Source: Azospirillum sp. (GTDB lineage Bacteria; Pseudomonadota; Alphaproteobacteria; CACIAM-22H2). From it: DNA of 40,198 nt. A program made the translations under genes and the position numbers. The stretch lies in assembly GCA_020249045.1 (NCBI GenBank), contig JADCGK010000033.1, positions 1 through 40,198 on the forward strand, read 5' to 3'. Within the stretch, counting starts at the first letter, position 1. The number at the start of each line of letters is the position of its first letter. Positions 3,406 to 32,893 of the stretch are shown piece by piece. Below the pieces are notes generated by a model, which saw only the letters and a program-made list of their open reading frames with translations, did no database searches and was not told the origin of the DNA.

Positions 3406-4248
3406 CTATAGCGAGGCGGCGAACAGCATGTAGCGGGCACCGCCGCGCGCATGCAGCCGTTCGAGGGCGAGGCCACCTTCGTGCGAGCGCATCAACGCGC
3501 GCAACGGCGGCAAAAAACGCCGCGCGCGGGCGTTCCAGCGTTCGAGGCGCGCGCGCGTGCGCGGATCGCGATGCACCAGCCGGGCGGACAGATCGTCGGC
3601 GCGCTCGAGCCGCAAGTCCGCCGCCGCAAAGCCCGCGCGCCAGGCCGCTTCGTCGACGAAGCCGGGCGTCTGCCAGCCCGCGACGAAGATCGCCGCGTCC
3701 GGATCGTCGGGCGCGCAGACGCGCACATCGTCGATCGCGACGATTTTGCCGCCCGGGGCCAGCGTCCCGGCGAGAGCGCCGAGACTCGCGCCCAAATCGG
3801 GCGAATGGGCCAGCGATTCGACCGCGACGATCAGGTCGTAAGGTCCGCCCGGCGGCGCGTCGTAACTTGCGACCTCGAACCGCGCTTGCGCGGCGAGACC
3901 GCGCGCCGCCGCTTCGGCGCGCGCGCGCGCGATCTGCACGGGCGACAGCGCAATACCGGTCAACGCGCCCCCGAACCGTTGAAGCAGTGCGAGCCCGAGC
4001 CCGCCCAAGCCGCAGCCCGCGTCCAAGATGCGCGGTGCGTGCATCGCGCCTGCCGCCTCGGCGACCAGCAACTCGGCCGTGCGGGGGCTCGCGCGGCCGT
4101 CGGGTCCGATCAGCGCGCGTCGGACGGCCGCGACGTCGTCCCCGCCGCCCCAACCGAAACGCCGCGCGAGGCGCGTATAGCGCGCCAAACGGTCGTAATA
4201 GGCGGCAAGAGCGGGATTGGGGCTGGACATCGGCGGGTTCGCCGCCAT
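3406..4248 (-). CDS. Class I SAM-dependent methyltransferase
   Basis: The product is 280 residues and soluble. Motif I is ILDAGCGLGGLGLALL (about residues 94-109), followed by LTGIALSPVQIARAR (motif II region) and YDLIVAVESLAHSPD (motif IV). GGKIVAIDDVRV follows at the post-motif strand. The order resembles small-molecule methyltransferases of the tocopherol or sarcosine methyltransferase type, but the substrate is unknown. The N-terminus YYDRLARYTRLARRF is typical of enzymes acting on quinols or lipids; this is only an inference. An alternative start is the ATG at 4230 (MSSPNPAL). The gene is divergent from the DUF2842 gene with only 10 bp between the outermost start codons. Confidence 0.88.
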   Translation of the reverse strand: MAANPPMSSPNPALAAYYDRLARYTRLARRFGWGGGDDVAAVRRALIGPDGRASPRTAELLVAEAAGAMHAPRILDAGCGLGGLGLALLQRFGGALTGIALSPVQIARARAEAAARGLAAQARFEVASYDAPPGGPYDLIVAVESLAHSPDLGASLGALAGTLAPGGKIVAIDDVRVCAPDDPDAAIFVAGWQTPGFVDEAAWRAGFAAADLRLERADDLSARLVHRDPRTRARLERWNARARRFLPPLRALMRSHEGGLALERLHARGGARYMLFAASL

Positions 4249-4258
4249 CTATAGCGGT
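4249..4258. promoter_or_regulatory. Very short divergent start region with CTATAG palindrome
   Basis: Only 10 bp separate the ATG of the minus-strand methyltransferase (4248) and the ATG of the plus-strand DUF2842 gene (4259). The palindrome CTATAG fills 4249-4254. On the plus strand TATAGC would be a -10-like box placing the transcript start at or next to the ATG, which would give a leaderless mRNA. No good Shine-Dalgarno sequence fits on either side. If the methyltransferase really starts at 4230, the gap is 28 bp. The assignment is tentative. Confidence 0.3.
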
Positions 4259-4459
4259 ATGCCCACCGCCCGCTCCAGCCTCGCCTTCGCCGCGTTGATT
4301 TTGTTCCTGATCGCGTATGCCGTCGCCGTGGCCACGCTCGGGGATCTTCTGCCCGAGCATTGGGCGGCCGATCTGGTCTTTTATCTCGCCGCGGGCTTCG
4401 CGTGGGTGCCGGTCGCCGTGGCGTTACTCAAATGGGGCTATCGGACCCCGGCGCAATAG
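4259..4459 (+). CDS. DUF2842 small membrane protein
   Basis: This 66-residue protein has two predicted membrane segments, about residues 8-27 (LAFAALILFLIAYAVAVATL) and 39-57 (VFYLAAGFAWVPVAVALLKW). The loop LLPEHWAADLVFYLAAG and the WVPVAVALLKW end fit the DUF2842 family, which is common in alphaproteobacteria and has no known function. An upstream in-frame ATG at 4217 lies inside the divergent methyltransferase gene and is not used here. The RibD-like gene follows after 26 bp, so the two may be cotranscribed. Confidence 0.85.
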   Translation: MPTARSSLAFAALILFLIAYAVAVATLGDLLPEHWAADLVFYLAAGFAWVPVAVALLKWGYRTPAQ

Positions 4460-4485: not shown

Positions 4486-5343
4486 ATGATCCCGATACCA
4501 CAAGTCGAAATTCGCGCGGCGCCGCGTCGGTTGGACGAGGCGCAAGCCTGGCGCTTGGTTCTGGCCGCGCGCGCCGGCGGGCCGGGCAGGCACGGTCCTT
4601 TGGCGCTGGCCGACGACGGCGGCTGGCAATGCGCGGGACCGTTGTCGGCCGAGGCCGAGGCGGTGTTCGAGCTCTACCTGCCGCTGTTGACCGCGCGCGC
4701 GCGCGCCAAGCGCCCGTTCGTGGTGGCGTTGTTGGGGCAAAGCTTGGACGGACGGATCGCCACGCTTTCGGGCCACTCGCATTTCGTCAATTGCGACGCG
4801 GCGCTCGTGCACCTGCACCGGATGCGCGCGCTATGCGACGCGGTGCTTGTGGGTGCCGGCACGGTCGCGCTCGACGATCCGCGCCTGACCGTGAGGCGCT
4901 GCGAAGGCGCATCGCCGTTGCGGGCTGTCCTCGATCCCGACGGGCGCGCGCCGGCCGAGCGCAACGTATTCCGCGACCGGGCGGCACCCACGGTCGTCCT
5001 GCGCGCGACGGGGGCTTGCGCGGCACCCGCCGGCGAGGCGACGGTCATCGAAGTGGCGCGCGACGCCGACGGCGGGATTTCGATCCCCCAGGCGCTCGAC
5101 GCGCTGGCCGCGCATGGCTGCAAGCTTTTGCTCGTCGAAGGCGGCGGGCGTACGGTCTCCCGCTTCCTCGAAGCCAAGCGCGTGGACCGCCTGCAATTGG
5201 CCGTCGCACCGATGGTGATCGGGTCGGGCCGGCCGTCGATCGCGCTGCCGCCTATCGAAACGCTGGCCGACGCGCTGCGCCCGCCCACGCGGCGTGCCGC
5301 ACTGGGCGCGGACACGCTGTTCGAGTGCCGTCTTGGCGACTAG
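4486..5343 (+). CDS. RibD C-terminal-domain reductase (pyrimidine/pterin reductase-like)
   Basis: The 285-residue protein has an N-terminal extension of about 75 residues followed by a RibD-C/dihydrofolate-reductase-like NADPH domain. Visible signatures are SLDGRIAT (87-93), LVGAGTVALDDPRLTVR (about 121-137), the Gly-rich LLLVEGGGRTVSRFL and the late VAPMVIGSGRPS. The RibD deaminase domain (HAE and PCxxC zinc motifs) is absent, so this is a stand-alone reductase. Family members reduce the ribosylamino-pyrimidine of riboflavin synthesis or related pterin intermediates with NADPH. Its place in front of an MDR dehydrogenase, a PTPS-like protein, a glycosyltransferase and a methyltransferase suggests a dedicated pathway rather than riboflavin supply. 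ATG 4486 was chosen; an upstream in-frame ATG at 4360 lies inside the DUF2842 gene. Confidence 0.88.
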   Translation: MIPIPQVEIRAAPRRLDEAQAWRLVLAARAGGPGRHGPLALADDGGWQCAGPLSAEAEAVFELYLPLLTARARAKRPFVVALLGQSLDGRIATLSGHSHFVNCDAALVHLHRMRALCDAVLVGAGTVALDDPRLTVRRCEGASPLRAVLDPDGRAPAERNVFRDRAAPTVVLRATGACAAPAGEATVIEVARDADGGISIPQALDALAAHGCKLLLVEGGGRTVSRFLEAKRVDRLQLAVAPMVIGSGRPSIALPPIETLADALRPPTRRAALGADTLFECRLGD

Positions 5344-6280
5344 TTTCTGGATCGCGGGGCCCGCGCGCGGGGAATTGCGTGCGGCGGCGCTGGGTGCGCT
5401 GGCACCCGGCCATGTGCGCGTGAAGACCCGCTATTCGGGCATCAGCCGGGGTACCGAAAGACTGGTTTGGAACGGTCGCGTGCCGCCCGCCGAATACGAA
5501 CGCATGCGCGCGCCCTTCCAGGACGGTGCCTTCCCCTACCCGGTCAAATACGGCTATTGCGCCGTGGGACGCATCGTCGAGGGCCCGCGCGCAGGCGCGC
5601 GGGTCTTCGCGCTGCATCCGCATCAGGATCTCTTCGACGTGCCCGACGCCATGGCGCTTCCCATCCCCGACGGCGTGCCGGACGAGGCCGCCCCCCTCGC
5701 CGCGCATATGGAAACCGCGGTCAACGCGCTGTGGGACCATCCGGTGCGCGTGAGCGACCGGGTGGCGGTGGTGGGATTGGGGGCGGTCGGCCTGTGCGTG
5801 GCGCAACTCGCCGCGCGCGTACCCGGCGTCGATCTGGTCGCGATCGATCCCGCCCCGGCCGCGCGCGCCCGCGCACGCGCCGCAGGCTTGCGCATCGCAG
5901 AGGCCGCCGAAGGTTGCGATTTGGTCTTCCATGCCAGCGGCACCGCCGCCGGACTGGCCGCCGCGATCGCCGCGGCCGGGTTCGAGGCCACGATCGTCGA
6001 GCTTTCCTGGTACGGCGAAGGCACCGTGGCGGCCCCTTTGGGCGGCGCGTTCCACGCCAAGCGGCTGACCCTGGCCGCGAGCCAAGTCGGCGCCGTTTCG
6101 CCGTCGCGCCGCGCCACGCGCGATCATCTCGGCCGTCTGGCGCTCGCGCTCGCCTTGCTCGCCGAACCTTCGCTTCGTCCCGATCTGGGGCCCGCCCTGG
6201 CCTTCGCCGATCTGCCCGCGCGCTACGCCGAGGCGCTCGACGCGCATCCCTCGCCTTTGCCCCTCGTCGCCTACGATTGA
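5333..6280 (+). CDS. Zinc-independent MDR-type alcohol dehydrogenase
   Basis: This is a medium-chain dehydrogenase/reductase of about 315 residues. The N-terminal GroES-like part has VRVKTRYSGISRGTERLVW, and the central Rossmann fold has VAVVGLGAVGLCVAQLA. The Cys/His ligands of the catalytic zinc and the four-Cys structural zinc lobe are not visible, so it resembles the zinc-less bacterial enzymes annotated as theronine- or sorbitol-dehydrogenase-like. The start is uncertain: TTG 5333 fits the family N-terminus (LATSFWIAGPARGEL), while GTG 5294 is the longest possibility. Either way it overlaps the RibD-like stop at 5343. It probably oxidises or reduces an intermediate of the five-gene pathway; the substrate is unknown. 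Confidence 0.85.
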   Translation: MATSFWIAGPARGELRAAALGALAPGHVRVKTRYSGISRGTERLVWNGRVPPAEYERMRAPFQDGAFPYPVKYGYCAVGRIVEGPRAGARVFALHPHQDLFDVPDAMALPIPDGVPDEAAPLAAHMETAVNALWDHPVRVSDRVAVVGLGAVGLCVAQLAARVPGVDLVAIDPAPAARARARAAGLRIAEAAEGCDLVFHASGTAAGLAAAIAAAGFEATIVELSWYGEGTVAAPLGGAFHAKRLTLAASQVGAVSPSRRATRDHLGRLALALALLAEPSLRPDLGPALAFADLPARYAEALDAHPSPLPLVAYD

Positions 6281-6289
6281 AGGACCGCC

Positions 6290-6685
6290 ATGTACAGCCT
6301 CACCGTCCAGGACCACATCATGATCGCCCATTCGTTCAAGGGCGAGATCTTCGGGCCCGCGCAGCGCGTGCACGGCGCGACCTTCGTCGTCGAATGGGAA
6401 TTGCGCCGCCCGCGGCTCGACCAATACGGCCTGATCGCGGATATCGGCCTCATGAAGAAGGCGCTGCGCGCGGCGCTGGACGAGATCGACTACCGCAATC
6501 TCGACGAGATCGAGGCCCTCAAGGACGCCAACACGACGACCGAGTTCCTGTGCGGCCTCATTTTCGAATTGCTGAAGGCGCGCGTGGCGAAGGGCGAATT
6601 GCAGGCGGCCGATTTCGCCGCGATGAAGATCACGCTGCGCGAATCGCCGGTCGCCTGGGCGGCGTTCGAGGGCCCGCTTTCGTGA
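6290..6685 (+). CDS. 6-pyruvoyl-tetrahydropterin synthase/QueD-like protein with altered active site
   Basis: The protein is 131 residues, the normal length for the PTPS/QueD fold. His14 (IMIAHSF) matches the first zinc ligand and His28 (RVHGATF) the second. In normal enzymes the next pattern is Cys-x3-His-Gly-His; here the Cys position is Ala24 and the third zinc His is Ala30. The DANTTTEFL helix and the late RESPVAW segment with its Glu are kept. The fold is therefore convincing, but canonical PTPS or carboxytetrahydropterin synthase chemistry is doubtful. It lies 9 bp after the dehydrogenase and overlaps the glycosyltransferase start by 4 bp (GTGA). It may bind a pterin or catalyse a different step. 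Confidence 0.88.
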   Translation: MYSLTVQDHIMIAHSFKGEIFGPAQRVHGATFVVEWELRRPRLDQYGLIADIGLMKKALRAALDEIDYRNLDEIEALKDANTTTEFLCGLIFELLKARVAKGELQAADFAAMKITLRESPVAWAAFEGPLS

Positions 6686-7644
6686 GGCTGCGCCTGGTCA
6701 TTCCGGGTTCGATCGACCAGGCCACCGGCGGCTATCGCTACGCCAAGCGGATTCTCGGGGCCTGGGGCGACGGCCCCCTGCCGATCGTCGATGGCGAGCC
6801 GGCCACCTGCCTTGCGCGCCGTCGCGCGGGCGAAACCCTGCTGATCGACGGGCTCGCGCTTCCCGCACTCTACGACCGGCTTCCGCTGCCCGATTGCGCG
6901 GCGTTGATCCACCATCCGCTCGGCCTCGAAACGGGCCTCGCGCCCGCGCGCGCCCGCGCGCTGCTGGCGGCGGAGGCCGCAGCACTCGGCAAAGTCGCGC
7001 GGATCGTCACCACCAGCGAACCCACGCGGCGCGATCTGATCGCGATGGGTGTCGATGCGGCGAAGATCCGCGTCGTCGAACCGGGCACGCAAGGCGCCCG
7101 TGCGGCGTGCGCGCGTCGCGGCCTGCCCCGAATTCTTTGCGTGGCGACCCTCACGCCCCGCAAGGACCACCCGACGCTGCTGCGCGCGCTCGCGCGCGTG
7201 CGCGGCGCCCGATGGCGCGCGGTCTTCGTCGGGCCACTCGACCGCGATCCCGCGCAGACGCGCAAGGTTCGCGCGACGATCGCGGCCTTGCGGTTGGGGC
7301 GGCGGATCGTGCTGGCGGGCGAGCGCGGCGAGGCGGATCTCGCGCGGGCCTATGCGCGCGCGCATATCTTCGCCCTGCCGTCGCGTCATGAAGGTTACGG
7401 CATGGCGTTCGCCGAGGCGCTCGCCCACCGTCTGCCGGTCGCGGGTGTCGCGGCCGGTGCCGTTCCTTCGGTCGTCCCGCGCAAAGCGGGCATTCTGGTG
7501 CGGCCGGGCGATGCGCGGGCGCTCGCCCGCGCCCTCGCGGCGTTGCTGGGCCCCGCCAAGCGCCGCTATGCCGCCAACGCCGCACGGCTGCGCTTTCCCG
7601 ATTGGGCCGAACAAGCCCGCGCCTTGCGCGCGGCCCTGGCATGA
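6682..7644 (+). CDS. Glycosyltransferase family 4 (GT-B fold)
   Basis: The 320-residue GT-B enzyme begins at GTG 6682, overlapping the PTPS-like stop as GTGA. The N-terminal half starts RLRLVIPGSIDQATGGYRY, and VTTSEPTRRDL marks the linker. The C-terminal donor-binding half has ILCVATLTPRKDHPTLL and the EX7E motif in HEGYGMAFAEAL. These are standard GT4 retaining-glycosyltransferase signatures. The frame stays open well upstream, but that part is a shadow of the dehydrogenase. Together with the PTPS-like and RibD-like neighbours it could attach a sugar to a pterin-like product, as the pteridine glycosyltransferases of cyanobacteria do. The acceptor is inferred from context only. Confidence 0.88.
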   Translation: MRLRLVIPGSIDQATGGYRYAKRILGAWGDGPLPIVDGEPATCLARRRAGETLLIDGLALPALYDRLPLPDCAALIHHPLGLETGLAPARARALLAAEAAALGKVARIVTTSEPTRRDLIAMGVDAAKIRVVEPGTQGARAACARRGLPRILCVATLTPRKDHPTLLRALARVRGARWRAVFVGPLDRDPAQTRKVRATIAALRLGRRIVLAGERGEADLARAYARAHIFALPSRHEGYGMAFAEALAHRLPVAGVAAGAVPSVVPRKAGILVRPGDARALARALAALLGPAKRRYAANAARLRFPDWAEQARALRAALA

Positions 7645-8372
7645 GCGGGTTTTCCGCCGATTGGCTCGCCTTGCGCGAACCGGCCGACGCGCAAGCGCGC
7701 GCGGCCGATCTGGCCGGACGGTTCGCCCGCGCTCTGCCCCGAAAGGCGCGCATCGCCGATTTGGGCGCGGGTGCGGGCTCGATGGGACGCTGGCTCGCCC
7801 CCTTCCTGCCGAAGGACGCGCGGCTGTTTTCGGTCGACGGCGATGCGGCGCTGCTGGTCCATTCGGCGCCGCCGCGCTTGCGCCGCTCGTTGGGGGCGGC
7901 GATCCCGCGCGCCGACGCCTACGTCTCCAGCGCGCTCATCGATCTCGTCTCCGTCGGCTGGTTGCGCAAGCTGCTGCGCGCCGCGCGCGGACGGCCGGTT
8001 TTGATGTGCCTCGCCGTCGACGGACGGCACGGCGCGCGGCCGGCGCACCCGCGCGATCCGGCGTTCTTCGCGGCTTTCGCGCGCCATCAGCGCCGCTGGA
8101 AGGGCCTCGGGGCGGCACTCGGGCCCGACGCGCCGCTGGCGCTCGCGCGCGAAGCCCGGCGGCTCGGTTGGACGGTCCACGCGCGCCGCTCGGACTGGGT
8201 GCTACCCGCGGGCGATCTTGCGCGCGCGACGCTCGAAGGGATCGCGCACGCGGCGCGCGAGGTGCAGCCCGGCTTGACGGCGGCGTGGCCCGTCGGGCGC
8301 GGCCTCACCGTGGGGCATGCGGATGTTCTGCTGCTTCCGCATAGATGTCGCCGGACGGCGAGTCGGGCGTGA
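7641..8372 (+). CDS. SAM-dependent methyltransferase, last gene of the pterin-type cluster
   Basis: The 243-residue protein starts with ATG 7641, which overlaps the glycosyltransferase stop (ATGA). Motif I is IADLGAGAGSMGRWLAPFL, and RLFSVDGDAALL gives the acidic residue that binds the SAM ribose. The following region is divergent, with SSALIDLVSVGWLRKLL at the motif IV position. The C-terminal end, GLTVGHADVLLLPHR, overlaps by 68 bp on the opposite strand with the end of the FkbM fusion gene, so the two operons converge tail to tail. Substrate unknown; a glycosylated pterin-like compound is one guess. Confidence 0.85.
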   Translation: MSGFSADWLALREPADAQARAADLAGRFARALPRKARIADLGAGAGSMGRWLAPFLPKDARLFSVDGDAALLVHSAPPRLRRSLGAAIPRADAYVSSALIDLVSVGWLRKLLRAARGRPVLMCLAVDGRHGARPAHPRDPAFFAAFARHQRRWKGLGAALGPDAPLALAREARRLGWTVHARRSDWVLPAGDLARATLEGIAHAAREVQPGLTAAWPVGRGLTVGHADVLLLPHRCRRTASRA

Positions 8373-9741
8373 GCCCGTCGAGAAACGCCAGCATCGCCGG
8401 CCCGTCCAGCCACGCGTCGCCGACGAGGCGCAGATCCTCTCCGACCGCGCGGCTGAAGCGATAGCCCGCGAGCCGTCGCACGCAGGCGCGCGCGACCTCC
8501 CGGCTCGCCCAAGAGTACTCGAACGACAGCGCCGGAACGGCCGTCGACAACCCCGCGAGCACGTCGGCCTCGGCGCCCTCGACGTCGATCTTCACGAAGT
8601 CGGGCCTGCCATGACGCGCGATCAACGCCTCGAGCGTGGTCATCGGCACCTCGACCGCGCGGTTCCAGACGACGGCCTCATAGCCGGGCGCGGCACCGGC
8701 CGCGGCGACGAAATCGGGCGAAGCGCTGGTCACGGTCGGATGCCGGTCGCTGACGCGCAGCACGAGCGTGCCCTCGCGGCGGCCCACGGCGGTCCGTTCG
8801 AGGGCCACGTTCGCATCGTCGACGAACAACCGCGCGAGGAAATCGGCGAAAATCGGCTGCGGTTCGACCGCGACGACCGCGGCCCCCAAACGCCGCCAAC
8901 TCGCGGCCCGGTTACCGGCATGGCTGCCGATGTCGAAAGCGAGACCGCCCGGCTTGACCCAGCGCGCGTAAAACCGGTCGAGCTGCCCGGCCCGGCCCGG
9001 CACGAACCAATAGATCGCGATCGACCGCAAGAGGCCAAGATAAGGCGCCAGGCCGTTCTCCATCGCGCGCGTCGGCGCCGTGCGCCACAGCCAGCGGACA
9101 TCGACCGCGAAGGACCACAGCAGAGCGACCAATGCCGCCGCCCCCAGCCATGGCCCCGCGGGCCAGGGGACGAGGATGGCGATCAAGCCGAGACCCTGGA
9201 CGACGCAAACGATCCGTCGCCGCTCGCTGGGCGGCAATGGGGCCGACAGGAACGGCCAGGCGAACGCGGCCCCGATAAAGATGTAGCGCGGCAAACCGAG
9301 CGCCAGCGCCCAAATTCCTTCGACGCGCGCGGCGAGGACGGCCAGGGCCAGCATCAACGCGGAGTCGACCTCCATATCGAAGCGCGCGCCGAACGCCGAG
9401 GCCGTCCGATTGCGCCGCGCGAGCCATCCGTCGAAACCGTCGGCCGCGATCAACGCGCCCGCGAACACCGCCAGTGCGACGCGCGCGGTCTCGGTCATCG
9501 GCGCGGTCAAAAACGCGCAGATCGTCGCCAAGCCCACGCCGCGCGCGTAGGTCACGGCGTTCGCCGCGCCGAACCGCGCGAAAGGATGGTCGGCCAGGCC
9601 CCAGCGCGCGCCGGCCCACAACGCGACGCAAGCCAGCGCGTAAAGCCCCATACCTTCGACCGAGGCAAGCACCAAAGGAGCCGGGGCGAAGCACGCGGCC
9701 GCAAGGATCGCGAAGTTCCGCAGATCGGTCGTGCGGCTCAT
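8305..9741 (-). CDS. Fusion: CDP-alcohol phosphatidyltransferase + FkbM-family methyltransferase
   Basis: One uninterrupted 478-residue frame carries two domains. Residues about 10-215 form a multi-pass membrane CDP-alcohol phosphotransferase with the complete signature DG-x2-AR-x8-G-x3-D-x3-D at 104-126. Residues about 265-450 form an FkbM-type methyltransferase with LAFDIGSHAGNRAAS (motif I), VVAVEPQP and the FkbM hallmark DFVKIDVEGAEADVL. An internal Met227 could in principle start a separate methyltransferase, but no stop separates the domains. The start ATG 9741 overlaps the sulfatase stop (ATGA). The enzyme would transfer a phospho-alcohol head group from a CDP-activated donor and methylate a sugar or head-group hydroxyl in the same surface polymer; this is inferred. 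Confidence 0.85.
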   Translation of the reverse strand: MSRTTDLRNFAILAAACFAPAPLVLASVEGMGLYALACVALWAGARWGLADHPFARFGAANAVTYARGVGLATICAFLTAPMTETARVALAVFAGALIAADGFDGWLARRNRTASAFGARFDMEVDSALMLALAVLAARVEGIWALALGLPRYIFIGAAFAWPFLSAPLPPSERRRIVCVVQGLGLIAILVPWPAGPWLGAAALVALLWSFAVDVRWLWRTAPTRAMENGLAPYLGLLRSIAIYWFVPGRAGQLDRFYARWVKPGGLAFDIGSHAGNRAASWRRLGAAVVAVEPQPIFADFLARLFVDDANVALERTAVGRREGTLVLRVSDRHPTVTSASPDFVAAAGAAPGYEAVVWNRAVEVPMTTLEALIARHGRPDFVKIDVEGAEADVLAGLSTAVPALSFEYSWASREVARACVRRLAGYRFSRAVGEDLRLVGDAWLDGPAMLAFLDGLTPDSPSGDIYAEAAEHPHAPR

Positions 9742-11351
9742 TTCGGCGTCGAGAAATCGGCGAGGAACGCGCTCAGGAAATCCTCCATCGGCGCCGCCGC
9801 GTCGGGCACGGCGATACCGGCCGCATAACCGCGCCTCAGGAACGGCTCCACGGCCGCTTCGTCGCGCGCGAAGACATGGATCGGCACGGCGAAATCCCCC
9901 GTCCGCCGCGCGGTCGTCAGCGGCGGCTGATGGTCGCCGAGCACGACGAACAGCACGTCCTTGTCGGCGACGCGATCGGCGAAGCGGCCCACCGCGTCGA
10001 GCACGTAGTCGATCGCCGCGACATAGGCCTCGTCCTGATCGAATACGCGGCCCGCGCGGACCGGGAATTCCCTGACCGGCAACCCGGCGTAAACCGAGCC
10101 GTCGCCCAAGGCGTCCCAATCTTCGACGATCGCGGGCACGCGCTCGAACGGCGTATGGCTGGAGGCGAGCACGAGCTTCGCGAAGGTCGGCGCGCCGGCC
10201 AGATCGAGCGCGGCGACCCGTTCCAGCACCCATTGGTCGGGTAGGGATTCCCATGCGAAGCGCGGACCGCGATAGCCCAGATCGGGTTGGATGCGGATCG
10301 TTTCGAAGCCGAGCAGGCGCCCCTCGGGCCAGGGCTGATCGATGCGCGGCATCACGGCCGCGCTGCGCCAGCCGGCGGCGGCGAAGCGATGGGCGAGCGT
10401 CTTGGCGCCGGAGACGAGCATCACTTCGTAGGCGTCTTGGGCGGCGAGTTTGGCGCCGGTCAACAGCGTGCCGTGCGCCATCCACGACCCGCCGCCGGTG
10501 ATCGGCGAAACCAGCGCGGCCGAGGCGGCTGTGTAGCCGGCCGCCGCGAGACGGTCGGCGAGTTTGGCGCGCGCGGGATCGAGCGTCCGCGCGAAATCGG
10601 GGTTCGTCGCCGTGATCCGGCCGTAGGATTCGACGAAGATGAGCACGACATGCTTGCCGCGCAGCGCGGCGAGATCGGCATCCGCCGGCAAGGCGGCCTG
10701 CGCGGCGTCGATGCGCGCGCGATGCGCGCCGCGCAAGCCTTCGGCGGCCAGCACGTTGTCGACATTGCGCGCGACCGTCGCCGCGGCGTCGGCGGACAGG
10801 AACGGGCGCGGGCCCGGCGCCGAAGGCGCCGGCGGCAGCGCGAAGGCGGACGCGATCACGACGGCGAACCCGGGCAAGAGGCGTCCGGGTGCGCCGGCGG
10901 CGAGCGCGCGGAACGCAACACCGAACATCGCGCGCACGAGCCAGAGAACGGCGCACGCGACGAGGATCGCGCTTGCGACGAGCAGCCCGAATTCGACGGC
11001 CGGCATGGCGTCGGCCAGCAGCTTTGCGAATACCGGCACGAAGCGCGCGTCGATGGCGACGTTGAGATCGCGGCCGAAGAACCACGGCACGGCGAGTCCC
11101 AACGCGCGCACGCAGAAGCCGGCGACGAATACGAGCGCCAGCAACCAGCACAACGCCCCGGCCTTGCGCGCGCCGAGCAGGGCCGCAAGGCCGAGCAGTG
11201 CGAGCGCGCCGACCAATTCGAGCGCGACCGCCGAGGGCAGGATTTGGATCGGCGCTTCGATGAAATCGCCCGAGGAAACAAGCTGATTGAGGATCACGAC
11301 CGCGGCGGCGGCCGAGATTGTCCACGGCGGCTCGATCCGCCGCCGGCTCAC
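9738..11351 (-). CDS. Membrane sulfatase/LTA-synthase-like phosphotransferase
   Basis: The 537-residue protein starts at GTG 11351, which overlaps the GT2 stop as GTGA. Its first 170 residues hold about five membrane segments, for example 41-60, 65-85, 121-140 and 158-172. An alkaline-phosphatase-superfamily periplasmic domain follows. VVLIFVESYGR gives the metal-binding Glu241, ITGGGSWMAHGTLLTG contains the nucleophile position (Ser289 or the later Thr296), and LGDHQPP is the typical late metal-binding motif. Layout and length resemble phosphoglycerol or phosphoethanolamine transferases acting on surface glycans. Neighbouring GT2 and CDP-alcohol transferase genes support a role in decorating a polysaccharide. 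Confidence 0.87.
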   Translation of the reverse strand: MSRRRIEPPWTISAAAAVVILNQLVSSGDFIEAPIQILPSAVALELVGALALLGLAALLGARKAGALCWLLALVFVAGFCVRALGLAVPWFFGRDLNVAIDARFVPVFAKLLADAMPAVEFGLLVASAILVACAVLWLVRAMFGVAFRALAAGAPGRLLPGFAVVIASAFALPPAPSAPGPRPFLSADAAATVARNVDNVLAAEGLRGAHRARIDAAQAALPADADLAALRGKHVVLIFVESYGRITATNPDFARTLDPARAKLADRLAAAGYTAASAALVSPITGGGSWMAHGTLLTGAKLAAQDAYEVMLVSGAKTLAHRFAAAGWRSAAVMPRIDQPWPEGRLLGFETIRIQPDLGYRGPRFAWESLPDQWVLERVAALDLAGAPTFAKLVLASSHTPFERVPAIVEDWDALGDGSVYAGLPVREFPVRAGRVFDQDEAYVAAIDYVLDAVGRFADRVADKDVLFVVLGDHQPPLTTARRTGDFAVPIHVFARDEAAVEPFLRRGYAAGIAVPDAAAPMEDFLSAFLADFSTPK

Positions 11352-12295
11352 GCGTACGCCCCCACGCGCAGGATCGGCTTGATCTTCGGACCTTCGCCGA
11401 GCGCGTAGACGTCCATCGTGCGGGCGATCGCGTCGGCGGCCGCACCCGGCGGTCCCAGATAGGCGCGCAGATTGAGCCACGGATACTTGCTGGTCCATCC
11501 CAGACCGGCGGCGCGACGCGCGTATTTCCACGCCCGGCCGGCCGCGCGGCGGAAGGCGAGCTTGCCGTATGCCGCCTCCAATTCGGGATGCGCGCGCAGG
11601 AAGTGGACGATCGCCAGCGCGTAGTCGTGATGCGCCTGATGGCCTTGGCCGACCATGATCCGCGTTTCGTCCGCCGCAGGGCCCCAGGTGACGACGTGCT
11701 CCCAGCGCGCGATCTTGCCCAACCGCGCCACGCGCAACGCCAGCGAGAAATCCTCGACGAAAACGTCCGGATCGCACATGCCCGCGCGCTTGACCGTTTC
11801 GGTGCGGAAAATCGTCGGCGACGTGCCAGACACGCCGCGCCGGATCACCTCGGCGACCGGGTCGGCGGGCACCGTCGCGACGGTCCTCGCCGCCGCTTGC
11901 GCGTCGAAGACGATCTCGGACGGATCCTTGTAGAAACCGATGCGCCCGAATACGGCTTGCGCGCCGGTCGTTTCGGCGACCTGGATCAGCCGGTCGCATG
12001 CGTAGGGTGCCAACACGTCGTCCGAGCCGACGAGTTTGAGCCACGGCATGGTCGCAAGCTCGATGCCGGTGTTCGTCGCGGCCGACGGTCCGCCGTTCTT
12101 GCGTTCGACGATCCGGCAATTGGGCCAATCGCGGGTCAATTCGCGGACGATCGCGACCGACCGGTCGCGGCTGCCGTCGTCCACGAACAGGAACTCGCGC
12201 GGCCGGTCCGGCGACTGCCGCCAGATCGCCGCGATCACTTCCGGCAGGAAGCGTTCCTTGTTGTAGACGGTGCAAAGAAGGGTGACGCCCGACAT
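11348..12295 (-). CDS. Family 2 glycosyltransferase (GT-A fold)
   Basis: The 315-residue enzyme begins MSGVTLLCTVYNKERFLPEVI, the usual start of GT2 enzymes. FVDDGSRDRS and VGSDDVLAPYACDRL supply the nucleotide-binding Asp and the DxD-like metal motif. VFVEDFSLALRVAR corresponds to the ED motif with the likely catalytic base. There is no strong C-terminal membrane helix, so it probably works at the inner face of the membrane. It is the first gene of a three-gene minus-strand operon with the sulfatase and the CDP-alcohol/FkbM fusion. It is divergent from arfB across 53 bp. Confidence 0.92.
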   Translation of the reverse strand: MSGVTLLCTVYNKERFLPEVIAAIWRQSPDRPREFLFVDDGSRDRSVAIVRELTRDWPNCRIVERKNGGPSAATNTGIELATMPWLKLVGSDDVLAPYACDRLIQVAETTGAQAVFGRIGFYKDPSEIVFDAQAAARTVATVPADPVAEVIRRGVSGTSPTIFRTETVKRAGMCDPDVFVEDFSLALRVARLGKIARWEHVVTWGPAADETRIMVGQGHQAHHDYALAIVHFLRAHPELEAAYGKLAFRRAAGRAWKYARRAAGLGWTSKYPWLNLRAYLGPPGAAADAIARTMDVYALGEGPKIKPILRVGAYA

Positions 12296-14491: not shown

Positions 14492-15382
14492 CTAAGCCTT
14501 CGATTCCCCGAGGAGGGCAGCGACCGCGCCGGGCAGCGCCAAGCGCCAATCGGGGGGTGCGGCATCGAAAACGCGCGCATAGCGCGCGCAATCGAGCACG
14601 GAGTTCGCGGGCCGCACGGCCGGCGTCGGGTAATCGACCGTCGCGATCCGCACGACCGGCGGGCGCGGATGGCCGTGCTTTGCGCCTTCGTCGAGGATCG
14701 CATCGGCGAACGCGGCCCATGTGACCGCGGGCCGGCCCTGGAAATGGAACAGGCCCGTCGCCTCCGCTTCGGCGGGATCGGCGAGTTTGGGCAGCATCCG
14801 GAAGATCGCGTCGGCGATGTCGAGCGCCGACGTCGGGCCGCCGCGCTGGTCGTCCACGACGCGCAATTCGGGCCGGGCGGCGGCCAGACGCAGCATCGTG
14901 CGCACGAAGTTGTTGCCCCACGGGGCGAAGACCCAGGACGTGCGCAGGATCGCCACGCGGCCGCCCGCGCGCCAGGCTGCGACCTCGCCCGCGCGCTTCG
15001 TGCTGCCATAGACCGAACGCGGCGCGCACGGATCGCTTTCCTTGTGCGGTACGCGTCCGTCGCCGGCGAAGACGTAGTCGGTCGAAACGTGCAGATAGGC
15101 GAGGCCCAAATCGGCGGCCACGCGCGCGTGCATGCCGGGCGCGTCGGCGTTGAGCGCGTGCGCGGCCTCGGGTTCGCTTTCGGCCCTGTCCACCGCGGTG
15201 TAGGCGGCGGCGTTGACCAGTGCTTGCGCGCCCGTCGTTTCGAGGGCCGCGCGCAGCATGGCTTCGTCGGTCGCATCGAGCCCGTCGCGCGGGAAGGCGT
15301 AGACGTCGTGGCCCATCGCGCCCGCGCGGGCATCGAGCGCGCGGCCGACTTGCCCGCCGCCGCCGAGCACGAGTACGCGCAT
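14492..15382 (-). CDS. rmlD: dTDP-4-dehydrorhamnose reductase
   Basis: The 296-residue short-chain dehydrogenase/reductase starts MRVLVLGGGGQVGRAL, the NADPH-binding glycine motif. NAAAYTAVDRAE, HVSTDYVFAG and the catalytic YGSTK (Tyr-x3-Lys) follow in the RmlD order. RTSWVFAPWGNNFV and the late FQGRPAVTWAAFA segment complete the family pattern. It carries out the last step of dTDP-L-rhamnose synthesis. It starts 3 bp after the rmlB stop, so rmlA-rmlB-rmlD form one operon. The mcd start follows 37 bp downstream of its stop. Confidence 0.95.
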   Translation of the reverse strand: MRVLVLGGGGQVGRALDARAGAMGHDVYAFPRDGLDATDEAMLRAALETTGAQALVNAAAYTAVDRAESEPEAAHALNADAPGMHARVAADLGLAYLHVSTDYVFAGDGRVPHKESDPCAPRSVYGSTKRAGEVAAWRAGGRVAILRTSWVFAPWGNNFVRTMLRLAAARPELRVVDDQRGGPTSALDIADAIFRMLPKLADPAEAEATGLFHFQGRPAVTWAAFADAILDEGAKHGHPRPPVVRIATVDYPTPAVRPANSVLDCARYARVFDAAPPDWRLALPGAVAALLGESKA

Positions 15383-15385
15383 CGG

Positions 15386-16447
15386 CTAGCCCGCGCCGAG
15401 GCGGCCGAGCGCGTATCGCTCGGCCTTGATGCGCGCGAGCCAATCCCCGGCCGCAAGATACCAGTCGACCGTGGCGTCGAGTCCGGTAGCGAAAGCGTGG
15501 GCCGGCCGCCAACCGAGCGCGCGCTGGGCCTTGGCCGCGTCGATCGCGTAGCGCCGATCGTGGCCGGGCCGGTCGGCGACGTGGGCGATCAAATCCGTGC
15601 GCGGACCTTCGGCGCGCGGACCGAGCTTCGCGTCCACGCGGGCGCAGATCGCGCGCACGACGTCGATATTCGCGACTTCCGCGTCGCCGCCGAACGCATA
15701 GACCTCGCCCGGCCGGCCGCGTTCGAGCGCCAAGGCAAGGCCATGCGCGTGATCGTCCACGTGCAGCCAGTCGCGGACTTGCCGCCCATCGCCGTAGACC
15801 GGCAGGGCTTCACCCGCCGCGGCCTTGGCGATCATCAGCGGAATCAGCTTTTCGGGAAACTGCCAAGGCCCGTAGTTGTTCGAGCAATTGGTGACGAGCG
15901 TGGGCAAGCCATAGGTCGCATGCCACGCGCGGACCAGATGATCGGACGCGGCCTTGCTGGCGGCATAGGGGCTGTTGGGCGCATAGGGCGTGGCTTCGGT
16001 GAACGGCGGATCGTCGGGCCCCAGCGCGCCGAACACCTCGTCGGTCGAGACGTGGTGGAAGCGGAAGACGGCTTGCGCCGCCGCGTCGAGCCCGCGCCAG
16101 TAGTCCAGCGTTTCGACCAACAGCCGCGCGGTGGCGCCGACATTGGTTTCGACGAAGGCGAGCGGCCCGTCGATCGACCGGTCGACATGGGTTTCGGCGG
16201 CGAAGTTCACGACCGCGGCGGGTTTGTGCCGGGCGAGGATGTCGCGCATCGCGCCGCGTTCGCCGATATCGGCCTTGTGGAACGCGTACAGCGGATCGGT
16301 CCGCGCGTCCTCCAGCGCTTCGGGATTGGCGGCGTAGCCCAACTTGTCGACGTTCACGACGGGCCGCCGGGCCGAGCGCAGCGCGCGCCGGATATAGGCC
16401 GAGCCGATGAAGCCGCAGCCCCCGGTGACGAGGATCGGCGCGGTCAT
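15386..16447 (-). CDS. rmlB: dTDP-glucose 4,6-dehydratase
   Basis: The 353-residue protein begins [19 protein letters not shown] with the NAD-binding GxxGxxG motif. [26 protein letters not shown] (the Thr-Asp-Glu active-site triad) and the catalytic [11 protein letters not shown] (Tyr-x3-Lys) match RmlB closely. [15 protein letters not shown] and [15 protein letters not shown] are further family hallmarks. The enzyme converts dTDP-glucose to dTDP-4-keto-6-deoxyglucose. ATG 16447 overlaps the rmlA stop by four bases (ATGA). The open frame upstream to 16654 is a shadow of rmlA. Confidence 0.96.
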
Positions 16448-17325
16448 GCGCGGCCGATCAGGCGAAGCAGATAATCGCCGTATCCGGATTTGCGCAGCGG
16501 CGCCGCCAAGGCGGCAAGGCGGCTCGCGTCGATCCAACCCTGACGCCAGGCGACCTCCTCGGGGCAGCCGATCTTCAGCCCCTGGCGGCGTTCGACGGCG
16601 GCGATGAAATTCGCCGCGTCGAGCAGCGAGTCTTGCGTGCCCGTATCGAGCCACGCCGTGCCCCGGCTCAACGTCTCCACGCGCAACGCGCCCTCGGCGA
16701 GATAGCCCGCGTTAAGATCGGTGATCTCGAGTTCCCCGCGCGGGGAGGGCTTCTGGCGCTTGGCGCGCGCGGATGCGGTCGGATCGTAGAAATAAAGCCC
16801 CGTGACGGCGAGATTCGAGCGCGGCGCGGCGGGCTTCTCGACGATGGCGCGGGGGGCGCCAGCGGCGTCGAGTTCGACCACGCCGTAGCGTTCGGGGTCG
16901 CGCACCGGATAGGCGAAAACCGTGGCGCCGGGCGCGGCGGCGGCGGCGATCGCCTGCAAGCGCCGGGAGAGCCCTTCGCCGTAGAAAAGATTGTCGCCCA
17001 GAATCAGCGCGCTGGGCGCGCCGTCGAGGAACGCTTCGGCGATGATGAGCGCTTGCGCCAGCCCTTCGGGCCGCGGCTGAACGGCATAGCGCAGATCGAC
17101 GCCGAACGCCGAACCGTCGCCCAGCACGCGCTCGAACGCCGGCAGATCCTGCGGCGTGGAAATCAGAAGAATTTCGCGAATACCCGCGAGCATCAGCGTG
17201 CTCAGCGGGTAATAGACCATCGGCTTGTCGTAGACCGGCAGCAATTGCTTGCTGACCGCCAGCGTCGACGGATGCAAGCGCGTGCCCGCGCCGCCGGCCA
17301 GCACGATTCCTTTTCTCGGTTTCAT
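16444..17325 (-). CDS. rmlA: Glucose-1-phosphate thymidylyltransferase
   Basis: The 293-residue nucleotidyltransferase starts [19 protein letters not shown], and [18 protein letters not shown] follows. [13 protein letters not shown] carries the metal-binding Asp, and YGVVELD and [20 protein letters not shown] complete the substrate-binding region. [17 protein letters not shown] is a family-specific late motif. It makes dTDP-glucose from dTTP and glucose 1-phosphate, the first step to dTDP-rhamnose. ATG 17325 gives the canonical N-terminus; an in-frame ATG at 17343 would add six residues. Confidence 0.95.
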
Positions 17326-19211: not shown

Positions 19212-21128
19212 TCAGGCGCGGATGGGCCGCAGGCGGGCTTGCGTCCCGCCGAGCGCGCCCATCGCCGCGCCGACGATCGACGCGGCGTCCAAGCCGGCGG
19301 CCGCGTACATCCGGTCGGGCGCGTCCTGATCGATGAAGCGATCGGGCAGCGCCAGCGTGCGCACGCGCAGCCCCCGGTCGAGCGCCCCGATCCCGGCGAG
19401 ATGCTGGAGAACGAACGCGCCGAAGCCGCCTAGCGCTCCCTCCTCGACCGTGATCAGCATTTCGTGCTCGCGCGCCAAACGCGCGATCAGATCGGCGTCG
19501 AGGGGCTTGGCGAAGCGCGCATCCGCGACGGTCGTCGACAGGCCGCGCGCGGCCAACTCCTCGGCGGCCTTCAGACATTCGCCCAACCGCGTGCCGAGCG
19601 ACAGAAGCGCGACGCGACTGCCCTCGCGCACGATCCGGCCCTTGCCGATCGGCACCGTCTCGCCATAGGCGGGCAACGCCGCACCCGTGCCCTCGCCGCG
19701 CGGAAACCGCACGGCGCTGGGACCATCGTCGATCGCCGCGGCCGTGGCGATCATCCGCACCAACTCCGCTTCGTCGGACGGCGCCATGATCGTGAAGCCG
19801 GGCAACGCGCCGAGATAGCCGAGGTCGAAAGCGCCGGCATGCGTGGGGCCGTCGGCGCCGACCAAGCCCGCGCGGTCGATCGCGAAGCGCACCGGCAGGC
19901 TTTGCAGAGCGACGTCATGCACGACCTGGTCGTAGCCGCGCTGCAGGAAGGTCGAGTAGATCGCCGCGAACGGCTTGTAGCCTTCGCACGCCAGCCCGGC
20001 GGCGAAGGTGACGGCGTGCTGTTCGGCGATGCCGACGTCGAAACAGCGTTTGGGATGGCGCGCCTGGAAATGGTCGAGCCCCGTGCCCGAGGGCATCGCG
20101 GCGGTGATCGCGACGATCTTGGGATCGCGGTCGGCAGCGGCGATCAGGGAGTCGGCGAACACCTTGGTATAGGCGGGCGCGGCGGCCTTGGCCTTGACTT
20201 GCGCGCCGGTCACGACGTCGAACTTCGCCACGCCGTGATATTTGTCGGCGGCGGCTTCGGCGGGGGCGTAGCCTTTGCCCTTCTGCGTGACGACGTGGAT
20301 CAGCGTCGGTCCCTGGCGTTCGCTGTCGCGCGCGTTGCGCAGGATGGGGAGCAGATGGTCCAGATCGTGCCCGTCGATGGGCCCCAGATAGTAGAATCCG
20401 AGTTCCTCGAACAACGTGCCGCCGATCGCCATGCCGCGCGTGTAGGTGTCGAGCTTGCGTGCGGCCTCGTGCATCGGACGCGGCAATTGCCCGGACAGGC
20501 GCTTTCCGATCTCGCGCAGATGCACGAAGGCGGGCGAGGACAGCAGGCGCGAAAGATAGGCGCTCATCGCGCCCACGGGCCGGGCGATGGACATGTCGTT
20601 GTCGTTGAGGATGACGATCAGGCGCGACTTCATGGCGCCCGCGTTGTTCATCGCCTCGTAGGCCATGCCCGCGGACATCGCCCCGTCGCCGATGACGCAG
20701 ACCACATTGTTGGCGCGGCCATCCATGTCGCGCGCCACCGCCATGCCGAGCCCGGCCGAGATCGACGTGGAGGAATGCGCGGCGCCGAACGGGTCGTAGT
20801 CGCTTTCCGCGCGCTTGGTGAAGCCGGACAGCCCGCCGCCTTGGCGCAGCGTGCGGATCCGGTCGCGCCGCCCGGTCAGAATCTTGTGCGGATAGGCTTG
20901 ATGGCCCACGTCCCAGATCAACCGGTCGTGCGGCGTGTCGAAGACGCTATGCAGCGCGACGGTCAGTTCGACCACGCCCAGGCTCGCGCCCAGATGTCCC
21001 CCGGTGACCGAAACGGCCGCCACGGTTTCGCGCCGCAATTCCTCCGCGAGGACCGCGAGATCCGAATCCGGCAACCGGCGGAGGTCTTCGGGGGTCGTCA
21101 CGGCGTCGAGAATCGGTGTGGCGCTCAT
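19212..21128 (-). CDS. dxs: 1-deoxy-D-xylulose-5-phosphate synthase
   Basis: The 638-residue thiamine-diphosphate enzyme has the usual length. [31 protein letters not shown] and the TPP-binding [18 protein letters not shown] lie in the first half. [18 protein letters not shown], with the conserved Glu, and [18 protein letters not shown] follow in the transketolase-like second domain. It condenses pyruvate and glyceraldehyde 3-phosphate at the entry of the MEP isoprenoid pathway, feeding the bacteriochlorophyll tail and carotenoids. It is the last gene of the superoperon, 28 bp after hemA, with AGGAGG five bases before its ATG. Confidence 0.97.
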
Positions 21129-21139
21129 TTTCGCCTCCT

Positions 21140-21155
21140 CCGGACCGAAGTCCGG
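21140..21155 (-). other. Intercistronic UUCG-tetraloop hairpin between hemA and dxs
   Basis: Read on the transcribed minus strand this is CCGGAC-TTCG-GTCCGG: a perfect 6-bp GC-rich stem closed by the very stable C(UUCG)G tetraloop. It begins one base after the hemA stop codon, and its 3' arm directly abuts the AGGAGG Shine-Dalgarno sequence of dxs. There is no T-run after it, so it is not a simple terminator. mRNA stabilisation, processing or tuning of dxs translation are possible roles. Confidence 0.6.
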
Positions 21156-21156
21156 T

Positions 21157-22368
21157 TCAAGCCGCGCGTTGCAGGGACAGCCGTGACCAGATCGCCGTCA
21201 GCGAATCGACGAGATGCCGGATGTCGTCGGGTCCGTGCAGCGGCGTGGGCGTGATGCGCAGGCGCTCGGTCCCGCGCGGCACGGTCGGATAGTTGATCGG
21301 CTGCACGTAGATGCCGTAATCCGACATCAACTCGTCGCTGATCCGCTTGCACAGAACCGGATCGCCGACCATCACCGGCACGATGTGGCTGTCGTTGGCC
21401 ATCAACGGAATGCCCGCCTCCGTCAGGCGCTTGCGCACCTCGGCGACGGCCGCCTGCTGGCGGCGGCGCTCCTCGGCGCTTTCCTGCAGATGCCGCACGC
21501 TGGCAAGCGCGCCCGCGGCCACCGCCGGCGGCAACGAGGTCGTGAAGATGAACCCCGAGGCGAAGCTGCGCACGAAATCGCACAGCGCCGCGCTGGCGGC
21601 GATGTAGCCGCCGACCACGCCGAAGGCCTTGCCGAGGGTGCCCTCGATCACCGTCAGCCGGTGCGAAATGTTCTCGCGCTGGGCGATCCCGCCGCCGCGC
21701 GGGCCGTAAAGGCCGACCGCGTGCACCTCGTCGAGATAGGTCATGGCGCCGTGACGGTCGGCGACGTCGCACAATTCGGCGATGGGGGCGATGTCGCCGT
21801 CCATCGAATAGACCGATTCGAACGCCACCAGTTTGGCGCAGTCGCGCGGCAGATCGGCGAGCTTGCGGTCCAGATCGCGCGGATCGTTGTGCGCGAAGAT
21901 GCGTCGCGGCGCGCCCGAATGCCGGATGCCTTCGATCATGGAGGCGTGGTTGCCCGCATCGGACAGAACGACGCAATTGGGCAGGCGCGAGGCGAGCGTG
22001 GACAAAGAAGCCCAATTCGACACGTAGCCCGACGTGAACAGCAGCGCCGCCGGCTTGTCGTGCAGGCGGGCGAGTTCGCGTTCGAGCAGCACGTGATAGT
22101 GGTTGTTGCCCGAAATGTTGCGCGTGCCGCCGGCGCCGGCGCCGCATTTGTCGAGCGCCTCGTGCATGGCCGCGAGAACCTTCGGGTTCTGGCCCATGCC
22201 GAGATAGTCGTTCGAGCACCAGACGGTGACCTTGGCGGGGCCGCCGGACGCGTGGCTGACGGCGCTGGGAAACTCGCCGCGCTTGCGTTCGAGATCGGCG
22301 AACACGCGGTAGCGCCCCTCGCGGCGCAGGCCATCGAGCTTATCGGCGAAGAATTCCTCGTAGTTCAT
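21157..22368 (-). CDS. hemA: 5-aminolevulinate synthase
   Basis: The 403-residue PLP enzyme begins [49 protein letters not shown] and the aspartate-containing [13 protein letters not shown] are ALAS hallmarks. The PLP lysine is in [15 protein letters not shown]. It condenses glycine and succinyl-CoA to 5-aminolevulinate, the committed step to haem and bacteriochlorophyll. Placement between puhE and dxs in the photosynthesis operon suggests this copy serves pigment synthesis. ATG 22368 overlaps the puhE stop (ATGA). Confidence 0.97.
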
Positions 22369-23174
22369 GACGGCGTCCCCTCCCCTGGTCCTTGCGCGCC
22401 GGCGCCCCGCGCCCGCGCCGCCTCGCCGCTCCCCCAGAGCAGCGATTGCGGTATCGGCAGCACCATCAACAGGTGCTCGGCGATCGCCAGCGACAGCAGC
22501 GTCGCGACGATGGCCATTTGCGTCCCCTCGAAACCCGCCGCGCCGTGCGCGTAGGCGGATTTCCACAACGGCATGGCGACCAGCACGGCGAGCCCCACCG
22601 TGACCGGAAACAGCGGCGTCGCCGGCCCGCGCGAGAAATAACTGCCGAGATAGCGCAGATGTTCGGGCAGCAACTCGTCGCCGAGATTGGGCACGCCGAA
22701 ATGCAGGTTGAGCTTGGCCGACGCGCGCATGCACCACAGCACGGCGAAGACCCACAGCGCGGTCATGTTCGCCGCACCCCAAGTGGCGGCCAGCAGCGCC
22801 GCCCCGACCGCGAGCAGCGCGAGTTCGTGATAGAGCACCGCTTGGACCGCGAAGAACAGCCGCGCACGACCGGTCCCCGGCGGGCACGGCGCGCGCCGCG
22901 GGCCGACGACCGCACCGGTCAGAAACGCGAGTTCGACCCACGCCCACAGCAACAGCGCGCCCCCGAAGCCGACATAGGCGCCCGTGGCGCTCGCCTGGTC
23001 GGCGAACGCGATGACCGCGATCAGCCCCAGGATCGCCAGGACGCCGCCGGCCGCGAGACTCACCGGAAATGTCCGCCGCGGCAGCCGGTCGAGCCGCATG
23101 ATCGCCGCCGTGCCGATCCACCAGGCGGCGATCACCGCACCGGCGGGCGACAGGAAGGCGAGGGCTGTTTCCAC
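22365..23174 (-). CDS. puhE: Photosynthetic complex putative assembly protein PuhE
   Basis: The 269-residue integral membrane protein has about seven hydrophobic segments and opens [19 protein letters not shown]. The central [24 protein letters not shown] and [10 protein letters not shown] segments are strongly conserved in PuhE. The C-terminal 25 residues are Ala/Gly-rich and poorly conserved. PuhE acts in assembly of the reaction centre/light-harvesting 1 core; its exact activity is unknown. It follows acsF after 13 bp and overlaps hemA. Confidence 0.93.
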
Positions 23175-23187
23175 GGCGATCGTCTCC

Positions 23188-24252: not shown

Positions 24253-24740
24253 CGGGTTTCTCCTGCGAGCGCGACGCCCGACCGCGGCAAAAGCCGCGCG
24301 AAGGCATCGCGGTTGGTCGCGCCGAAGGCGCGCAAATCGACGCGCCGGCCGGTGGCCGGATCGTCGAGAACGAGGCTGCCGTCGCGCCACAGCGACAGGC
24401 GGAACGGCGTTTCGGGGCCGAGATCGGCCTTCTTGCGGTCGCGCACCAGCCCGCGCAGCGTGGCGCGCGCGAAGCCGTCCTCGCCCGGCGCCATCGTCAG
24501 AAAGACGCGCCCGTCCGCCGCGTCGAGCACGTCGATGCCGCCGTCGGCGCGATCGACGAAACGCATCTCGCGCGCGGCGATCGGGGCTTCGACCGGCGCG
24601 ATCCCGTCGCCCGAGCGCCCCAGATCGGCGAACCGGCCGAGCCCGGCGCCGAGCAGCGACACCGCGAGCGTGACGGCGGCGGCGATCAGCAGCGGGCGCG
24701 GCAGGACGCGATCTTCGTGCGGCAGCGGGCGGGCGGTCAT
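24249..24740 (-). CDS. puhC: Photosynthetic complex assembly protein PuhC
   Basis: The 163-residue protein has one N-terminal membrane anchor (about residues 16-35, [18 protein letters not shown]) followed by a periplasmic domain. [20 protein letters not shown] and VLRG-like GLVRDRKK are characteristic of PuhC. It supports assembly and organisation of the reaction-centre/LH1 core. ATG 24740 overlaps the puhB stop (ATGA). The C-terminus overlaps the acsF start. Confidence 0.92.
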
Positions 24741-26166: not shown

Positions 26167-26171
26167 TTCAT

Positions 26172-26178: not shown

Positions 26179-26187
26179 GCCTTCGGG

Positions 26188-28292: not shown

Positions 28293-32893
<4,601 letters not shown>

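Follow-up and report, generated by a model that had tools for sequence, protein, structure and literature searches.

Which compound do five adjoining genes of an Azospirillum species serve to make, and do these genes belong together at all? The genes lie on contig JADCGK010000033.1 of assembly GCA_020249045.1, of which positions 1 to 40,198 were analyzed (the window). Between positions 4486 and 8372, all on the forward strand, they encode a reductase of the RibD C-terminal type (RibD_C), an MDR-superfamily dehydrogenase, a PTPS-like protein, a GT4-type glycosyltransferase and a SAM-dependent methyltransferase (MT). An initial annotation of this DNA had described a compact arrangement and had proposed that the predicted activities fit a single pathway. 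The arrangement is as described, with genes overlapping at three junctions (by 11, 4 and 4 bp) and a 9-bp gap at the fourth; the 11-bp overlap rests on the start chosen for the MDR gene (TTG 5333), and the RibD_C gene starts at ATG 4486 or possibly further upstream. The proposal of a single pathway is supported by the co-occurrence of the five families in other genomes, when compared with control stretches, and we conclude that the five genes form a real and widely conserved bacterial pathway.

Conservation was analyzed in an evenly drawn sample of 398 Pseudomonadota genomes (the window's own and 397 others), in which the PTPS-like subfamily was called at about 180 bits or more. It was found in 26 of the 397 other genomes, the remaining matches to the PTPS family reaching 62 bits at most. 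Within about 10 kb of these genes, MDR was present in 26 of the 26 loci, GT4 in 25, MT in 24 and RibD in 22, which is the conserved co-occurrence that the initial annotation had asked for as a check. Additional neighbours in the same 26 loci were a CDP-alcohol phosphatidyltransferase (CDPA, 12 loci), an MprF-type flippase domain (LPGS, 11), GTP cyclohydrolase II (GCH2, 11) and FkbM (8) and, more rarely, cytochrome b561 (CYTB, 7), creatininase (CREA, 6) and an LtaS-like enzyme (SULF, 5). As a control we used 20 stretches around ordinary PTPS matches of the same sample, with a threshold of 40 bits; four of the stretches came from genomes that also bear the cluster, and one (L220) was without a PTPS match. 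Above the threshold, none of the 20 contained RibD, MT or MDR (an MDR match with a printed score of 40 lies at the threshold), and GCH2 and GT4 were each found in one. The family profiles were built from the near set, and weaker relatives could escape in both the sample and the controls. The MT family is present in 25 other genomes of the sample, 24 of which are among the 26 with the PTPS-like gene.

In 16 other genomes with the PTPS-like gene, read up to 20 kb, the order RibD-MDR-PTPS-GT4-MT recurs. A scan of contigs yielded at least 586 relatives, and the best 80 of them were retained; as these are the nearest to the query, counts in the near set are biased. Over 103 loci in all, many of them incomplete, a gene-calling script found MDR in 100, GT4 in 97, MT in 87 and RibD in 86. 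Relatives of the core are present in two further phyla besides the Pseudomonadota, with a gene order and a RibD orientation that vary. Pairwise identities of the five families correlate with each other over 71 loci (r 0.71-0.88; permutation maximum 0.15), shared species ancestry contributing to these values. Because co-occurrence spans three phyla while order and RibD orientation vary, and because MT and the PTPS-like gene are co-distributed, the association is not due to chance. The genes of the core and those that face it are listed below.

Table. Genes of the core cluster and of the convergent group, with positions in the window
Gene product	Position	Strand	Assignment
Stand-alone RibD C-terminal-type reductase	4486-5343	+	PF01872, 2.4e-37
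MDR-superfamily dehydrogenase, distantly BchC-like subfamily	5333-6280	+	weak PF00107; start taken as TTG 5333
PTPS-like T-fold protein, HGA subfamily (SCO6650 type)	6290-6685	+	PF01242, 8e-23
GT4-type glycosyltransferase, GTG start	6682-7644	+	PF13692, 3.2e-25
Class I SAM-dependent methyltransferase (MT)	7641-8372	+	AlphaFold2 model and Foldseek
Fused CDP-alcohol phosphatidyltransferase and FkbM methyltransferase, 478-aa open reading frame	8305-9741	-	PF01066, 3.7e-12, and PF05050, 3.1e-13
Putative membrane alkaline-phosphatase-superfamily phosphotransferase, LtaS/LtaP/MCR-like	9738-11351	-	AlphaFold2 model and Foldseek
GT2 glycosyltransferase	11348-12295	-	PF00535, 1.7e-22

The genome of the window gave a single PTPS-family match, the PTPS-like protein. 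Its profile score over the cut-off and the ring-anchoring Glu118 place it in the COG0720/PF01242 T-fold family, and a full-length match to its closest solved relative, SCO6650 (PDB 3d7j; 1.1e-62 over 132 positions), together with the HGA signature common to both, places it in the SCO6650 subfamily. In that subfamily the signature A..HGA reads FGPAQxxHGA in 99 of 103 relatives and FGPSQxxHGA in one, three not being parsed. The catalytic Cys of PTPS and QueD is replaced by Ala24, HGH by HGA (the second His being Ala30) and the catalytic His by Y, F, L or M; this comparison was made with an E. coli sequence, and alignments with PDB entries agree with it. Neither the CxxxHGH motif with its catalytic Cys and the three Zn-ligand histidines (PTPS-I/QueD) nor CxxxxxHGH (PTPS-II) nor ExxHGH (PTPS-III) is found in the protein. 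As the catalytic Cys, one Zn-binding His and the catalytic His are replaced throughout the subfamily, the protein should have neither PTPS nor QueD activity. The PTPS activity implied by the initial annotation is hence not supported, and the name 6-carboxytetrahydropterin synthase, which relatives often bear in public annotation, is contradicted by the residues. SCO6650 itself was reported to be without Zn, PTPS triad or PTPS activity. T84 and E85 of the TTE stretch are invariant in the subfamily, as is Glu118, and are putative ring-binding residues; the invariant His9 could serve as an alternative metal ligand.

The reductase has the domain and the motifs of ArfC/RibD_C enzymes (SLDGRIA, DDPxLTxR and EGGG are kept), and no deaminase domain was detected in it. 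Its best solved relatives are 6p8c, named 2,5-diamino-6-ribosylaminopyrimidinone 5'-phosphate reductase, and 2azn, a putative archaeal reductase; a separate RibD_C match in the window's genome lies in a 444-aa frame (G000:C22). For the MDR dehydrogenase the nearest NCBIfam model is TIGR01202 (BchC), at 7.8e-14 and far under its cut-off, and SRGTE and the Rossmann glycines are conserved in the family. MT gave no match in the Pfam and NCBIfam scans; its AlphaFold2 model (pLDDT 93.4) matches many class I SAM methyltransferases in Foldseek.

That the pathway draws on a pterin or pyrimidine derived from GTP had been the theme of the initial annotation, and the neighbours found in relatives strengthen it. 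Of the 106 loci that span 15 kb or more, 28 contain GCH2; creatininase was found in 15, of which 13 have GCH2 too. The GCH2 proteins of the clusters retain the metal-ligand cysteines. At the switch position of this enzyme, Met is linked to a formylated product; it was found only in Streptomyces, the Proteobacterial proteins that were read having Tyr, even beside creatininase (two were unreadable). With 28 of 106 loci, GCH2 was rejected as a universal part of the cluster, as was the Met-switch type as a rule, the Streptomyces protein being its only example among the readable ones. In the window's genome, alignment and model scan identified a RibBA with a degenerate GCH II domain (L027, 7676-8941) and a PRK07198-type paralogue (L028, 6043-7590) on contigs C210 and C155; judging by match score, 10 congeners have a comparable pair, or one member of it. 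The same genome contains five creatininase-family matches (contigs C13, C46, C80, C132 and C53), none of them within the window.

On the opposite strand, and facing the core, the window encodes a fused CDPA-FkbM protein and an LtaS-like enzyme. In the 16 genomes mentioned above, LtaS-like, CDPA and FkbM genes likewise face the core in most loci with sufficient contig. The five genes of the initial annotation thus stand as the core, whereas its boundaries and the completeness of its set do not, as the minus-strand genes at 8305-11351 share the conserved neighbourhood. The motif DxxDGxxAR...GxxxDxxxD is present in CDPA, with D101, D104, G105, A108, R109, G118, D122 and D126 conserved over 40 relatives. 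PgsA, the acceptor of which is a polyol phosphate, is the nearest curated model of a separate (unfused) CDPA relative. The fusion occurs in 10 other loci, corresponding to nine other genomes since two loci are apparently the same contig, and elsewhere CDPA and FkbM are two genes. The LtaS-like protein scores just below the Pfam sulfatase cut-off; its AlphaFold2 model, built on a 12-sequence alignment (pLDDT 85), has LtaP, LtaS, MCR-1, GacH and EptC as best Foldseek matches. It has predicted N-terminal membrane helices, conserved ESYG and GDHQ motifs and invariant E241, D473 and H474, and Ser289 is possibly the nucleophile.

CDPA was found in 51 of the 106 loci, belonging to Pseudomonadota, Actinomycetota and Acidobacteria. 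Of the 32 loci with SULF, 31 also contain CDPA, as do all 21 loci with LPGS. This association, together with the CDPA-FkbM fusion, indicates that CDPA, FkbM and the LtaS-like enzyme form one subpathway; from its proximity to the core across three phyla, we infer that it acts on the core product. With these genes added, the likely product shifts from a soluble pterin glycoside to one that is possibly linked to lipid. Clusters of relatives further add GCH2, creatininase, the MprF-type flippase domain or cytochrome b561. The GT2 gene overlaps the LtaS-like gene by 4 bp and was found in 11 loci, all of close relatives, and was therefore rejected as a conserved part of the cluster.

The reading that we favour, tentatively and at somewhat less than even confidence, is that the core converts GTP, via the diaminopyrimidinone ribotide, into a glycosylated and methylated pterin-like compound, which would be linked to lipid where CDPA is present. 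A GTP cyclohydrolase II, encoded within the cluster in roughly one relative in four, would open GTP to 2,5-diamino-6-ribosylamino-4(3H)-pyrimidinone 5'-phosphate; Streptomyces may reach this compound by way of the formylated intermediate, from which the creatininase of the cluster would remove the formyl group. The RibD_C protein, standing alone, would reduce the ribotide, or a pterin derived from it, with the 2-amino group kept. The PTPS-like protein would bind the 2-aminopyrimidinone or pterin ring by means of its conserved TTE and Glu118 and catalyze a step that is neither that of PTPS nor that of QueD, perhaps ring closure or a side-chain rearrangement. The MDR enzyme would oxidize or reduce a side-chain hydroxyl, and a sugar would be attached by GT4 and a methyl group by the SAM enzyme. 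In clusters with the additional genes, such as that of the window, the PgsA-like phosphatidyltransferase would couple a phosphatidyl group to the polyol phosphate that the core provides, FkbM would methylate the coupled product and the LtaS/MCR-like enzyme would transfer a phospho-headgroup outside the membrane. More speculative, and unlikely in our estimation, is the wider proposal that several phyla make a membrane-lipid-linked headgroup of GTP-derived pterin or pyrimidine type without GTP cyclohydrolase I or true PTPS, exposed or transferred by an LtaS/MCR-like enzyme or an MprF-type flippase and possibly with cytochrome b561 as redox partner.

What the analysis shows is the set of genes, how it is conserved and co-distributed, that MT and the LtaS-like protein have the folds predicted above, as models, and that the PTPS catalytic residues are lost; the substrates and products, the sequence of reactions and the link to lipid are proposed from this. 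Several points weigh against the favoured reading. RibD_C was not seen in four of the 26 evenly drawn loci nor in the Streptomyces locus examined. The window's own cluster lacks GCH2 and no canonical GTP cyclohydrolase II was found in the window's genus, which leaves the source of the precursor there unsettled, and the Tyr of Proteobacterial GCH2 beside creatininase makes the role of the latter uncertain. Finally, in roughly half of the loci no CDPA was found in the vicinity, which makes it unlikely that the core serves for lipid linkage in the first place.

This last point also supports a soluble product, a possible but rather unlikely alternative in which a pterin or pyrimidine, glycosylated and methylated, is all that the core makes, the phosphatidyltransferase, LtaS-like and flippase genes belonging to a separate envelope pathway in a shared neighbourhood. 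The core indeed seems to do without CDPA, and GT4 and MT are present in nearly all loci. Nevertheless, CDPA is found beside the core in three phyla, in gene orders that differ, LtaS-like or flippase-domain genes hardly ever occur without it, and neither CDPA nor SULF nor LPGS was found in the 20 control stretches.

A different order of steps, which we regard as unlikely, competes with the reductase step of the favoured reading and not with its outline: RibD_C would be a pterin reductase, converting a dihydropterin into a tetrahydropterin, and ring closure of the diaminopyrimidinone ribotide would fall to the PTPS-like protein, in place of the second half of what GTP cyclohydrolase I does. A weak similarity of RibD_C to Rv2671, the fold that RibD_C has in common with dihydrofolate reductase and a T-fold with its ring-anchoring residues retained are consistent with this order, but the closest solved relatives of RibD_C are ribotide reductases and DDPxLTxR is kept. 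These alternatives are not all mutually exclusive; they differ in the role given to the lipid genes and in whether the reductase or the T-fold protein acts first.

It is improbable that the genes build an exopolysaccharide or a teichoic-acid-like polymer, with RibD and the PTPS-like protein shifted to sugar substrates. The GT4, GT2, PgsA-like and LtaS-like genes and the rml-like genes at 14492-16447 would suit such a product; the recurrence of GTP cyclohydrolase II and creatininase with the core indicates instead a GTP-derived ring, and no polysaccharide polymerase family was noticed among the identified recurrent neighbours, most neighbours being unidentified. That the PTPS-like protein is a divergent QueD for queuosine synthesis with incidental neighbours, as the public annotation of relatives and its being the sole PTPS-family match of its genome might suggest, was rejected as highly improbable in view of the missing CxxxHGH, an equivalog score of 44 against a cut-off of 89, a second PTPS-family match alongside in six sampled genomes and the conserved neighbours.

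The window also contains, at 19212-38223, a photosynthesis gene cluster of the purple-bacterial type (dxs-like, puhE, acsF, puhB, puhA, bchM, a NifH/frxC-family gene, bchH, bchB, bchN and ppsR). With puhA, bchH and ppsR of that type, the analogy with cyanobacterial pteridine glycosides drawn by the initial annotation does not suit the organism. The cluster occurs in Halomonas and Streptomyces as well, which are not phototrophs, and for both reasons we claim no link to photosynthesis. Upstream of the cluster, a further SAM methyltransferase gene on the minus strand and a DUF2842 gene (3406-4459) are kept in close relatives, with 26 bp from the end of the latter to RibD. At 14492-17304, near the glycosyltransferase genes of the cluster, lie an RmlD-like and an RmlB-like gene together with a third one (16444-17304), which possibly serve dTDP-sugar synthesis. 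In locus L052 (14522-16533) and more than 20 similar, apparently Acetobacteraceae loci, genes for a four-carbon acid sugar kinase and a class II aldolase follow the cluster, either by synteny or as members of the pathway; this kinase and the flagellar, DksA and citrate synthase neighbours probably reflect Acetobacteraceae synteny and were set aside. An MdoH-like glucan glucosyltransferase gene adjoins the cluster in 11 loci (L020, 5079-6881, and 10 others).

Open-licence papers on the gene set, on SCO6650/SCO6655 and on pterin lipids yielded no description of this system; the genes beside the core look able to attach a product to lipid, a combination for which no description was found either. 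No assigned product was found for this pathway, distributed as it is over Pseudomonadota and two further phyla. Solving it would provide a function for SCO6650-type proteins, listed as uncharacterized in the PDB, and reveal a role beyond riboflavin for the GTP cyclohydrolase II branch. Were the product linked to lipid, it would bear on how pterins cross the membrane, an open question according to a 2026 review (PMC13259868).

Among known systems, the SCO6650/SCO6655 locus of Streptomyces coelicolor is the closest in that it encodes the nearest solved relative of the PTPS-like protein. Both proteins have been studied. SCO6655 is a GTP cyclohydrolase II homologue yielding the formylated pyrimidine and, to our knowledge, no pathway or product has been assigned. 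A relative on a Streptomyces plasmid has the PTPS-like, GCH II and creatininase genes together. No RibD_C was seen in the Streptomyces locus examined; the fused CDPA-FkbM gene and the LtaS-like gene set the window apart, as does a cluster that lacks GCH II. In COG0720, the published signatures (PMC5041015) are CxxxHGH (PTPS-I/QueD), CxxxxxHGH (PTPS-II) and ExxHGH (PTPS-III); the HGA subfamily may correspond to PTPS-V, a group whose function that paper calls unclear and whose motif it does not give. The T-fold, PF01242, TTE and the Glu are shared with PTPS-I, -II and -III, but A..HGA stands in place of their signatures. Biopterin-type pterins are made via GTP cyclohydrolase I and true PTPS. It is such pterins that are glycosylated by the Chlorobium pteridine glycosyltransferase (PMC5683033) and in cyanobacteria; these systems have a pterin and a glycosyltransferase in common with the present cluster, which encodes neither of the two enzymes. 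In the archaeal riboflavin route (ArfB, ArfC) and with the BrbF formamidase, a creatininase-family enzyme deformylates the GTP cyclohydrolase product (PMC9478397). ArfC is a stand-alone reductase acting on a 2-amino ribotide, as proposed here for RibD_C. The match of the Streptomyces creatininase to the ArfB model reaches only 37 bits, and no link of the cluster to riboflavin was shown. Lastly, although sequence identity is low and the LtaS-like relative that was scanned received no NCBIfam assignment, the pairing of a PgsA-like phosphatidyltransferase with a membrane enzyme of predicted LtaS/MCR fold resembles the PgsA-LtaS and EptA/MCR systems of headgroup transfer.

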